Shown here one piece after another: positions 7,158 through 10,593 of a DNA stretch of 38,077 bases. This DNA comes from Synergistaceae bacterium. GTDB lineage: Bacteria > Synergistota > Synergistia > Synergistales > Synergistaceae. Location of the stretch: positions 1-38,077 of the forward strand of contig JAJFTP010000064.1 of NCBI GenBank assembly GCA_021372895.1, read 5' to 3'. The position numbers were made by a program, and so were the translations under genes. The notes beneath the pieces are model-generated. The model was not told where the DNA came from and made no database searches. It worked only from the letters and a program-made list of their open reading frames with translations. Numbering within the stretch: position 1 is the first letter of the stretch; every line of letters starts with the position of its first letter.

Positions 7158-7317
7158 TAACTCAAACTTTCCCACCTCTTGCTGCTAGTGGATCCAAAAC
7201 CTCTGTTTTTCGTCTTCTCTGTATGTTATTCAGCGGAGAACCAGTGGCTCTAAAATATTGAAGTTCCTGGATCCCCGCTCAAAAGCATGCGGGAAAGACG
7301 GTGGGAAAGTTGAGTTA
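7158..7317. repeat. 160-bp non-coding element with 18-19 bp terminal inverted repeats (MITE-like)
   Basis: The left end TAACTCAAACTTTCCCACC (7158-7176) and right end GGTGGGAAAGTTGAGTTA (7300-7317) are inverted copies that differ by one inserted A. The inside carries no supported reading frame. Two GGATCCA copies in opposite orientation lie inside (near 7190 and 7269). The design matches a small non-autonomous mobile element or its remnant. No clear target duplication is seen. It lies 30 bases before the tlpA start, in its likely promoter or leader. Confidence 0.6.
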
Positions 7318-7347
7318 CTAAATTTTAAGCGATATGAGGTGACAGCG

Positions 7348-7851
7348 ATGAAAAAGAAATATGTCGTATTTCTGATAATGGTCATTGCCCTGCTCGGCTT
7401 TGCCGCAGCAGTTCCCGCTCTTGAGAACAACGCAAAGGCGAAAAATTTTACGCTCATGGATCTCGATGGCAAATCCGTCTCCCTTGATAATTACAAGGGA
7501 AAGGTCGTAGTCCTTAATTTCTGGGCATCGTGGTGTCCGCCGTGCAAAGCCGAAATGCCTGAATTCAACGATATGGACAAAGAATTCAAGAAGTCCGGCG
7601 AAGTTGTGCTGCTGGCGGTCAACATGACGGACGGCAGACGGGAGACAAAGAAAACTGCGACAGGATTTATTAAGGAGAATAAGTATGGCATGAAGGTCCT
7701 GTTTGATGAAAAAGGTACGGCAGCAGGGATTTACTCAATTCAGTACCTTCCTACGACCTATGTCATCGACGCAAAAGGCTTCGTACGCGGACAGATAATA
7801 GGCGGAACGACAAAAGAAGCCGTAATGAAGCTAGTGCGGGAGGCACAATAA
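7348..7851 (+). CDS. TlpA/ResA-like extracytoplasmic thioredoxin
   Basis: A 167-residue secreted or membrane-anchored thiol-disulfide oxidoreductase. Residues 1-24 form a signal sequence (basic MKKK, then a long hydrophobic core). The AhpC/TSA-thioredoxin fold follows, with active site WCPPC at residues 62-66 and the cis-Pro region (YLPTTYV) later. The start is ATG at 7348 with GAGGT upstream; an in-frame ATG at 7258 would add a charged tail before the signal and lies inside the inverted-repeat element. It is followed two bases later by ccdA, the usual electron donor for such proteins. Confidence 0.92.
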   Translation: MKKKYVVFLIMVIALLGFAAAVPALENNAKAKNFTLMDLDGKSVSLDNYKGKVVVLNFWASWCPPCKAEMPEFNDMDKEFKKSGEVVLLAVNMTDGRRETKKTATGFIKENKYGMKVLFDEKGTAAGIYSIQYLPTTYVIDAKGFVRGQIIGGTTKEAVMKLVREAQ

Positions 7852-7853
7852 AC

Positions 7854-8525
7854 TTGACGGCGGATATCCCCTTTCTCTTTCTGGAGGGGCTGCTTGCTTT
7901 CATATCACCCTGTATGCTCCCCATGCTGCCGATATACCTTATGTACCTTGCGGCAGAGACAGAGAACGGACGCCGCGCAAGCATTGTCAACACTATAGGC
8001 TTTGTCTGCGGCTTCACTCTGATATTTATGGCACTCGGAGCTACGGCTACCGCAATAGGTTCCTTGATGAGCGCACACAGGTTCCTGCTCCAGAGGCTGA
8101 GCGGCCTTGTAATATTTATATTCGGGCTGCACTTTCTCGGTGTTTTTACGATAGATTTCCTTGATATTGAAAAAAAACTCGACATCAAGGTCCAGCGCAG
8201 GGGATTCTTCGGCGCGATACTGTTCGGCTCCGCTTTCTCTCTGGGCTGGACCCCATGTCTTGGTCCATTCCTCGGATCAGCATTAATGCTTGCCGGCAAT
8301 GGCAAAACTATGTTCCAAGGTATTTTCTATCTCTTCGTTTTCTCCATGGGGCTGGGCATTCCTTACGTTGTTGCTGCGATCTTCTTTACAAACATCAAAG
8401 GAGTTTTCCAATGGCTCAAAAAACATGGAAAACAAATAAAGTTTATCTCGGGCATAATACTCGTCATCGCAGGCCTGCTTATAATGTCTGATTCATTCGG
8501 CTATTGGGCCTCTCTTTTTGATTGA
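7854..8525 (+). CDS. ccdA: CcdA-type thiol:disulfide transporter
   Basis: Integral membrane protein of 223 residues with six predicted helices that passes electrons from cytoplasmic thioredoxin to extracytoplasmic thiol proteins. The two redox cysteines are in their family positions: Cys20 in FISPCMLPMLP (helix 1) and Cys135 in LGWTPCLGP (helix 4). The start is TTG at 7854, with GGGAGG inside the end of tlpA upstream. It is paired with the TlpA-like gene, so it most likely keeps that protein reduced, for cytochrome c maturation or general disulfide repair. Confidence 0.93.
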   Translation: MTADIPFLFLEGLLAFISPCMLPMLPIYLMYLAAETENGRRASIVNTIGFVCGFTLIFMALGATATAIGSLMSAHRFLLQRLSGLVIFIFGLHFLGVFTIDFLDIEKKLDIKVQRRGFFGAILFGSAFSLGWTPCLGPFLGSALMLAGNGKTMFQGIFYLFVFSMGLGIPYVVAAIFFTNIKGVFQWLKKHGKQIKFISGIILVIAGLLIMSDSFGYWASLFD

Positions 8526-8655: not shown

Positions 8656-9219
8656 TTATAACTCGCAGTTTTTGGATGCTTCCGAACAACCCCTGCCAAG
8701 CAGTATCAAGCTTATTCCGCTGAAAATAAGGTCAATTCCTAAAATTATCCCAATTATCGAGGCTCCGGTAAAAAAGTTTTTCCACATCATGAACGCCAGG
8801 ACTATACCAAGTATACCTGAGATAAGGATCCAGACTGAGCCTCTGATCTGACGAAGTCTGAAATATTCGATCACCTTCGTTATCCCGTCAACCATAAAGT
8901 AGGCCGAAAGCAGGATACTCAGCGTCATTACTCCGGCCAGAGGATGAAGCAGGAATATCAGTCCGGCAGCAAATGATATAACTGCCATGAACAACTGCTG
9001 CCATGGATTATCACCGTCCCGAAAACATCTGAACGCGCTCCAGCCCTCGCCTATACCGACAGCAAGAAGCAGCCAGCCCACAAGCGCTTCGACCGCAAAG
9101 GAAGCAAGCAACGGCATCGAGAGCGAAAAGAAACCAATTACCAGCATAATTGCACCGGTCCAGTAAAATCTTTTCTTGCTTTTTACAAGGTCATCCCTTG
9201 AAATTTTCCTCATAAACAT
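8656..9219 (-). CDS. HdeD-family membrane protein (DUF308)
   Basis: A 187-residue inner-membrane protein with six hydrophobic helices in three hairpins, the HdeD architecture (acid-resistance membrane protein in E. coli; role elsewhere unclear). The family feature SAYFMVDGITKVIEYFRLRQI lies in the middle, and the chain ends with a Cys-containing polar tail (GCSEASKNCEL). Three in-frame ATGs open the frame (9225, 9219, 9213). GGGAGG is too close to the first, so I chose the second. It begins 15 bases after the stop of the small TGA-containing ORF, which implies co-transcription. Confidence 0.83.
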   Translation of the reverse strand: MFMRKISRDDLVKSKKRFYWTGAIMLVIGFFSLSMPLLASFAVEALVGWLLLAVGIGEGWSAFRCFRDGDNPWQQLFMAVISFAAGLIFLLHPLAGVMTLSILLSAYFMVDGITKVIEYFRLRQIRGSVWILISGILGIVLAFMMWKNFFTGASIIGIILGIDLIFSGISLILLGRGCSEASKNCEL

Positions 9220-9234
9220 AGACATTCCCTCCCT

Positions 9235-9363
9235 TCATCTTTTAAAACGTTCGGATATTTTTTTAATTTGGAATACAATCCAAGGTATAGTTGCGGCAAC
9301 TGCCACAAACGGAAGTATAAGCAGTCAGGGCGGACAAAATCCGGGTCTCTTTCTGAATCTCAT
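9235..9363 (-). CDS. Candidate 42-residue selenoprotein with one membrane helix (in-frame TGA)
   Basis: The minus-strand frame starts at ATG 9363, eight bases after a GGGGGG binding site (9372-9377). It reads MRFRKRPGFCPP, then TGA (9325-9327), then continues open for 29 codons. The continuation is clearly protein-like: a hydrophobic helix (residues 14-33, LLILPFVAVAATIPWIVFQI) and a basic tail KKISERFKR, ending just before the hdeD binding site. Without readthrough the second part has no good start or binding site. A stem-loop after the TGA fits a bacterial SECIS. Read as Sec, residue 13 gives a CPPU redox motif. Alternatives are a decayed gene, a sequencing error or a short leader ORF. No homologue is recognised. 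Confidence 0.5.
9291..9308 (-). promoter_or_regulatory. Candidate SECIS stem-loop downstream of the in-frame TGA
   Basis: On the minus strand TTGTGGC pairs with GCCGCAA (seven pairs, one G-U) around the loop AGTT. The loop begins 23 bases after the TGA and has G as its second base. Bacterial SECIS elements are described as a stem with a small loop carrying G in the first two positions, about 16-37 bases after UGA. The fit is suggestive only, since such hairpins are common. Confidence 0.4.
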
Positions 9364-9383
9364 TGAAAACGCCCCCCTTTTGT

Positions 9384-9389
9384 ATTATA
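9384..9389 (-). promoter_or_regulatory. Possible -10 element for the small ORF and hdeD
   Basis: A perfect TATAAT on the minus strand ends 20 bases before the ATG at 9363. No -35 is recognisable, and the implied start would fall at the G run of the binding site. Readthrough from ptb-buk is an alternative source of transcript. Confidence 0.3.
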
Positions 9390-9516: not shown

Positions 9517-10593
9517 CTAAACATATTTTCCATCAGGATAGCTGCGCGGCCGCTCTTCCCCTTTAAGGACCCGCAGCGCACCCATTGCCAGAGCCGCAAG
9601 TTCATCTTCTCCGGGGACGATCTCTATAGGGGCAAGGAATTTTATTTTTTTCAGCAGCATTTCCATGAGACGTTCCGAATGTGCCATGCCTCCGGTGATG
9701 ATTATCGCATCAATGTCGCCATCCAGCACAGTACAGAACTCCCCGATACCTTTGGCCACCTGATAGACAAACGCTTCAAGTACTATCTCCGCTTTTTTGT
9801 CGGTCTCGGCCATTTTAAATATCTCACGCAGGTCACGTGTCCCCAGATATGCGACAAACCCCCAGCCAGAGAGGAGTTTCTTCTTAAGTTCATCTTCTGT
9901 ATAGCGACCGCTGAAGCAGAGGTCGATAACCCCTTCGACAGGAAGTCCGCCGGCACGCTCCGGTGAAAAGGGCCCTTCAGCCTTAGCTCCGCTGACATCT
10001 ATAATACGTCCGTTACAGTGCACTCCCAGAGTCACCCCGGTACCAAGGTGAGCAACTACAAAACGGCAGTCCTCATATTTCTTACCGAGCTTAGCCGCGA
10101 CCTTGCGCGCCACCGCTTTATGGTTCAGCGCATGGACAAGGCTTGTGCGCTCCATCTCAGGCGCACCTGATATCCTGGCCACGTCAGAGAGTTCATCTAC
10201 CGAAACAGGGTCGACTATGTACGCCGGACAACCGGACAACCTGGCGAATTTACGGGCAAGAAGCGCCCCAAGGTTCGACGCGTGTTCGCCGCGCGGGGCT
10301 TTTTTGAGATAGCTCACCATGCTGTCTCCGACGACGTATGTACCACTCGGGACCGGTGCGATTAGCCCTCCGCGTCCTACTACGGCGTCAAACCTGCCAT
10401 CCGTAAAACCGGCTGCGCCAAGTGCCTCCGAAATAAGTTCAAACCGTCGGTCAAGCTGATCAAGAACAGATGGGAAGGAGGCGCGCTCCTTGTCACTTAA
10501 CGGGATGTTCTTTTCAAAGATAAGCTCCTCGTCATTGAAACAGGCTATTTTCGTAGATGTGGAGCCCGGGTTTATCGAAAGTATGCTGAACAT
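9517..10593 (-). CDS. buk: Butyrate kinase
   Basis: Acetokinase-family enzyme, 358 residues (family about 355-360), that converts butyryl-phosphate (or a branched acyl-phosphate) and ADP into the acid and ATP. The N-terminal phosphate-binding motif SINPGSTSTKIA (residues 5-16), the HLGTGVTLGVH motif in the middle and a following GPFSPERAGGLP segment match butyrate kinases rather than acetate kinases. ATG at 10593 lies three bases after the ptb stop. The pair yields ATP by substrate-level phosphorylation. With branched-chain amino acids as feed, isobutyrate or isovalerate kinase activity is also possible. No convincing terminator follows. Confidence 0.93.
   Translation of the reverse strand: MFSILSINPGSTSTKIACFNDEELIFEKNIPLSDKERASFPSVLDQLDRRFELISEALGAAGFTDGRFDAVVGRGGLIAPVPSGTYVVGDSMVSYLKKAPRGEHASNLGALLARKFARLSGCPAYIVDPVSVDELSDVARISGAPEMERTSLVHALNHKAVARKVAAKLGKKYEDCRFVVAHLGTGVTLGVHCNGRIIDVSGAKAEGPFSPERAGGLPVEGVIDLCFSGRYTEDELKKKLLSGWGFVAYLGTRDLREIFKMAETDKKAEIVLEAFVYQVAKGIGEFCTVLDGDIDAIIITGGMAHSERLMEMLLKKIKFLAPIEIVPGEDELAALAMGALRVLKGEERPRSYPDGKYV

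Follow-up and report, generated by a model that had tools for sequence, protein, structure and literature searches.

A tiny one-helix gene with a conserved in-frame UGA points to an undescribed selenoprotein family in Synergistota

We analyzed a 38,077-nucleotide stretch of a Synergistaceae bacterium genome (contig JAJFTP010000064.1 of assembly GCA_021372895.1; hereafter the window), in which an earlier note had pointed out a tiny minus-strand open reading frame (ORF) at positions 9363–9235 with one in-frame TGA as a candidate selenoprotein gene with a CPPU motif, where U is selenocysteine (Sec). The same TGA, its flanks and a hairpin behind it recur in 24 other genomes, and the ORF is almost certainly a conserved selenoprotein gene. 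The best explanation overall, to which we give a probability of roughly 93%, is that it belongs to a so far undescribed Synergistota selenoprotein family, in which Sec would be inserted at residue 13 in a SelB-dependent manner and whose members may serve as partners of other proteins at the membrane face.

The reading frame and its conserved UGA

The gene is laid out as the earlier note described it. On the minus strand, a GGGGGG ribosome binding site is followed after 8 bases by ATG (9363–9361), MRFRKRPGFCPP, TGA (9327–9325), 29 open codons (LLILPFVAVAATIPWIVFQIKKISERFKR) and the stop codon TGA (9237–9235), right after which comes the GGGAGGG site of hdeD. With UGA read as U, the product is MRFRKRPGFCPPULLILPFVAVAATIPWIVFQIKKISERFKR, both ends of which are basic. 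The part behind the first TGA had been said to lack a start of its own; it does contain one in-frame GTG (Val20), but this GTG has no ribosome binding site before it.

A protein search of 100 relatives with U read as C returned 14 genomes including that of the window, each with one TGA inside the match, and in most of these loci the frame reads (R/K)R(P/R)GGCPP-TGA-(I/L)LLLP(I/F)VAVAA...W with the TGA aligned exactly. When a first profile of 13 of the 14 sequences was run on 188 Synergistota genomes, nine further genomes came up that belong to a second family and have the type GF(V/A)CPP-TGA-(I/L)L...AA(V/G)(V/I)A.(I/L)S, together with the more distant G111. A 23-sequence profile raised G111 to an E-value of 3.9e-12 and added G090 at 5.7e-7. 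E-values with the family profiles reach 1e-22. In all, 25 Synergistota genomes carry the gene; they belong to a single order and to three families in it, namely f1 (13 genomes, the family of the window), f3 (11) and f6 (1), and their proteins are 34–49 residues long. Weak matches in relatives (L016–L031, L054–L057, L059 and L060) were rejected as unrelated, the conserved TGA being missing from them.

Codon 13, at which the earlier note had proposed to compare homologues, is TGA in all 25 genomes. Without exception it comes right after CPP, and one membrane helix is predicted behind it; no carrier has a sense codon, TAA or TAG at this position. What is looked for in a bacterial selenoprotein is an in-frame UGA that different species keep and that has coding sequence before and after it, and the 25 genomes show this pattern. 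Around the UGA, synonymous sites have changed much (proportion changed, pS, about 0.5–0.9) and nonsynonymous sites less (pN). Within families, pN/pS is 0.06–0.10 over the five codons that precede the UGA and 0.36–0.47 behind it, against 1.0–1.4 in the two other frames. Codon changes are mainly synonymous on both sides, a sequence pattern that indicates selection at the protein level also after the UGA.

The range of the family was searched with a DNA pattern in which the Sec codon could be TGA, TGC or TGT, using one genome per species for 84,980 species. This gave 25 stretches, 16 of which were from Synergistota metagenome-assembled genomes, all with TGA. Because the nine others sit in unrelated frames, are not surrounded by an open frame like that of the family and were rejected as chance matches, the family appears to be restricted to Synergistota. 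Viral contigs gave chance pattern matches only.

The hairpin behind the UGA

The earlier note had seen a seven-pair hairpin with an AGTT loop within the distance known for bacterial Sec insertion sequence (SECIS) elements, and folding bears this out, with 7 pairs, an AGUU loop, 23 nt between UGA and loop and an energy of −9.7 kcal/mol. Published limits for bacterial SECIS (bSECIS) elements are a loop of 3–9 nt, a stem of 4–16 bp, a G in the first two loop positions, a distance of 16–37 nt from the UGA and a minimum free energy of at most −7.5 (PMC13188914), and the window hairpin lies within all of them.

The same six pairs recur at a constant distance after the UGA in 22 distinct sequences (positions 20–25 with 30–35, numbered from the U of UGA at 0), with four-base loops AGUU, GGUC, GGGC, AGGU or AGGC. 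In these sequences, 97% of the hairpin cells pair and three pairs have changed on both sides. The outermost of the six pairs, formed by the third positions of two codons, is C-G in 16 sequences, U-A in 3, A-U in 1 and G-C in 1, with one failure, and another third-position pair occurs as G-C, A-U and G-U. None of 500 shuffles reached any of five hairpin measures, and slid registers paired at 18–77%. Because an Ala-Val-rich protein itself favours such a hairpin, we ran a control in which synonymous codons were redrawn by each genome's own usage while each protein was kept. The observed 128 of 132 pairs compared with 101.3 ± 3.2 expected and were reached in 0 of 2000 simulations. Since these simulations treat sequences as independent, the test was also made with one sequence per genus, where 59 of 60 pairs were observed against 46.8 ± 2.1 expected, again reached in 0 of 2000. 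By this measure of sequence constraint, the hairpin is kept beyond what the protein explains. G111 and G090 have other forms, an eight-pair stem with loop CGUUGU in G111 and a seven-pair stem with loop CCUUGU in G090, the latter breaking one bSECIS rule.

Selenocysteine machinery of the carriers

The components by which we judged a Sec-using host, SelA, SelB and tRNA-Sec, are all encoded in the genome of the window: SelA at 3.4e-139, SelB adjoining it at 1e-107, and a tRNA-Sec with anticodon TCA that scores 74.6 bits. Three GrdB genes (L128, L129 and L130) each contain LT(S/A)T-TGA-GTCTRCG, a standard Sec TGA, and Sec is therefore in use in this genome. The three GrdB paralogues also suggest that this organism reduces glycine or related compounds. 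SelB was found in 23 of the 25 carriers and in 129 of all 188 Synergistota genomes searched; the two carriers without it (G046 and G009) are 65–66% complete, and each of them has a SelD gene that contains a TGA. One carrier, G066, has its tRNA-Sec gene (L113:7220-7317) ∼0.8 kb upstream of the tiny gene (about L113:8060-8180) on the same strand, an arrangement not seen in the other genomes.

Gene neighbourhood and possible function

The features of the window around the tiny gene are listed in Table 1.

Table 1. Features in and around the tiny gene of the window
Feature	Positions	Strand	Evidence or remark
TlpA/ResA-like thiol-disulfide oxidoreductase, WCPPC active site	7258..7851	+	ResA 4.4e-33, PF00578 2.5e-29
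CcdA/DsbD-type membrane thiol reductase, convergent with hdeD	7854..8525	+	PF02683 DsbD_TM 3e-16
hdeD-like (DUF308 membrane protein), directly follows the tiny gene on the same strand	8656..9225	-	PF03729 3e-21
Tiny one-helix gene, predicted selenoprotein	9235..9363	-	42 residues, stop codon included; kept in 25 genomes
Candidate SECIS hairpin, 7 pairs, loop AGUU at 9301-9298	9291..9308	-	23 nt between UGA and loop
In-frame UGA, predicted Sec codon, residue 13, CPPU motif	9325..9327	-	TGA in 25/25 genomes
GGGGGG ribosome binding site	9372..9377	-	8 bases before ATG
Candidate -10 box (TATAAT) shortly before the ribosome site, lacking a good -35	9384..9389	-	
Butyrate kinase-like, upstream	9517..10593	-	conserved neighbour by blastp; name by resemblance

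In f1, hdeD is the next gene in all 13 carriers, starting about 110–130 bases after the Cys codon, and this linkage holds even where the other flanks differ (G004, G009 and G023). The usual f1 cluster consists of ptb-buk (both named by resemblance), the tiny gene, hdeD and a convergent ccdA-tlpA pair. In most f3 genomes the tiny gene stands as a separate gene made up of TATAAT, AGGGGGTG at a place similar to that of the window's GGGGGG, the ORF and usually a terminator-like hairpin. Co-expression with HdeD, as proposed in the earlier note, thus fits f1 but is not general. TATAAT is exact in 10 of 24 homologue loci and clearest in f3; the window's copy is absent from the list of an automatic promoter scan. 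Most f3 tiny genes (L045 and L047–L053) share an upstream block of the type TATAATACCCCCAGGGGGTGA, in which the −10 box is followed by a short palindrome over the ribosome site, possibly regulatory.

Leaving aside G111 and G090, eight of the nine f3 genomes have the tiny gene adjoining arsM, arsR, a two-part ArsP_1-like permease and/or a resistance-nodulation-division (RND) pump, the permease halves scoring 30 and 31 bits, just under the ArsP_1 cut-off of 32.3. In G111 and G090 it comes after an ArgZ-like gene.

The membrane helix expected behind the TGA was predicted in the homologues, and AlphaFold2, given a 13-row family alignment, returned a single helix that spans residues 13–41 and begins at the Sec (mean predicted local distance difference test score 76). 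In the mechanism that we propose, SelB would bind the hairpin after the UGA and Sec would be inserted at residue 13, which would place Cys10-Pro-Pro-Sec13 at the start of the single membrane helix, whose end should favour the selenolate. At the membrane face, the Cys-Sec pair would most likely either form a selenenylsulfide reversibly or serve as a binding site for soft metalloids. The protein might then act as a small selenol/thiol redox or metalloid-handling partner of a larger, neighbouring membrane protein, a function that we rate at somewhat less than even odds; gene order suggests HdeD as the partner in f1 and probably the ArsP-like permease/ArsM system in f3.

A narrower function, specific to arsenic or organometal handling, would have the Cys-Sec pair capture soft metalloids for ArsP-like export and make the HdeD linkage a side branch. 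The arsenic-related neighbours in f3 point to it, and activity on arsenic or organometals is known from several selenoproteins (PMC13188914); however, no arsenic gene was seen beside the tiny gene in f1, f6, G111 or G090 and the f3 permease halves stay below the ArsP_1 cut-off, and we consider this narrower role rather unlikely.

Alternative explanations and points against

If the UGA were a true stop, the ORF would encode a 12-residue leader peptide and the region behind it would be a regulatory RNA for hdeD, such as a selenium-sensing attenuator. The constant place before hdeD in f1 and the hairpin after the UGA would suit such a leader, but the frame behind the UGA is under protein-level selection and a common profile matches through the UGA, while the f3 genes do not precede hdeD and mostly have a promoter-like box of their own, with the terminator-like hairpin immediately behind the stop codon that ends the read-through ORF. 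A leader peptide is accordingly very improbable. Some read-through of UGA occurs in most bacteria, so near-cognate misreading as Trp or another residue could give CPPW or a similar product with no Sec. Against this, the position is never TGG or any other codon in the 25 genomes, a SECIS hairpin stands at a fixed distance with covarying pairs, the genes occur together with Sec machinery and CxxU is a usual Sec motif, which leaves misreading a very slim chance. Decay or a single-base error, the usual cause of a lone in-frame stop and a real alternative in the earlier note, is refuted by the same TGA in 25 genomes, which excludes a sequencing error, in a frame otherwise intact and under purifying selection, and we give it practically no weight.

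Several observations weigh against the selenoprotein family itself. A check for the sel genes had been proposed, and selA, selB and tRNA-Sec were found, but no SelD above the 125-bit cut-off was found in the 97-contig assembly of the window's genome. The best matches there were two AIR-synthase-like proteins (L097 and L098, at G000:C50 and C78), which reached 77 and 70 bits against SelD, more than they scored against HypE and ThiL. Among 53 family members, 32 have a SelD that passes the cut-off, in most cases with a Sec TGA of its own, and because relatives have it we take the missing SelD as an assembly gap. The window hairpin is no more stable than its dinucleotide shuffles (z −0.79); the evidence for the hairpin comes from conservation across the sequences and not from a single fold. 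The neighbours on which the proposed function rests also differ between the families.

The remaining point is the Cys form, which the earlier note had hoped for beside U at position 13: U is predicted in all homologues, and a Cys homologue was found neither in 188 Synergistota genomes by profile searches nor in the 84,980 species by the Sec-or-Cys DNA pattern, whose strictness in the helix could let a divergent Cys form outside Synergistota escape. Upstream of hdeD in same-family genomes without the tiny gene, no Cys or decayed copy was seen. A Cys homologue is usual for selenoproteins but not strictly defining; almost all known selenoproteins have one, and the tiny family differs from them. 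The authors of the method paper on deep-Sep state that a Cys homologue now seems to exist for every known selenoprotein, GrdA having long been considered an exception, and that their pipeline may filter out families without them (PMC12013277). We tentatively raise the possibility of a Sec-only family with no Cys counterpart, of 34–49 residues and one helix, with CPPU at the helix end, whose members would be selenol partners, bound to the membrane, of different membrane proteins (HdeD or an ArsP-like permease).

Comparison with known families

The earlier note recognized no described family of this shape, and our comparisons agree. None of 23 family members matched an NCBIfam model at E 0.1, Pfam gave only two single chance-level matches among the members, and a profile search of the PDB gave no match. 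No family of this shape is among the 87 prokaryotic selenoprotein families listed in PMC9312934 or the 119 listed in PMC13188914 (2026), and none of the papers searched uses 'CPPU' together with selenoprotein. Judged by sequence comparison, the tiny proteins are a so far undescribed family of predicted Synergistota selenoproteins.

Like the TlpA/ResA-type (WCPPC) CxxC/CxxU oxidoreductases, one of which is encoded ∼1.5 kb from the tiny gene in the window, the tiny protein has CPP(C/U) at a helix start, but it differs from thioredoxin-like oxidoreductases in having 42 residues, a single helix in the AlphaFold2 model instead of a thioredoxin fold around the motif, and no family match. With the arsenic and organometal selenoproteins (ArsM, SaoB/C/L/P/T/X and a MerT-like C/SxxU membrane protein), the tiny protein shares a Sec near a Cys and, in f3, a place beside arsM, arsR and ArsP-like genes, and MerT, too, is a small membrane protein; the tiny protein differs in matching none of their NCBIfam models, and they are separate families in the review table, the comparison with Sao proteins resting on these models and that table. 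The KCU-star/DUF466 family NF033934, the dual CXXC motif small protein NF041197 and the CC/Se motif family NF041239 are likewise small with Sec near Cys, but 0 of the 23 members match NCBIfam.

The family would add one to about 119 catalogued prokaryotic selenoprotein families, in a shape hardly visible to routine annotation, where the gene caller halts at the UGA and disregards the 12-residue remnant. It may be Sec-only, which would be a reason to search for other such families, and it offers a lead on Sec in arsenic loci and on the partners of the functionally little-understood HdeD/DUF308. HdeD, always the next gene in f1, is a separate multi-helix protein that is present in other genomes without the tiny gene. 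Before a second hdeD in G014 and G029 (L157 and L159) there is another tiny one-helix ORF, about MRTLTVIIILGLSAALWAAALRFKEMSEWVNQ, without Cys or Sec.
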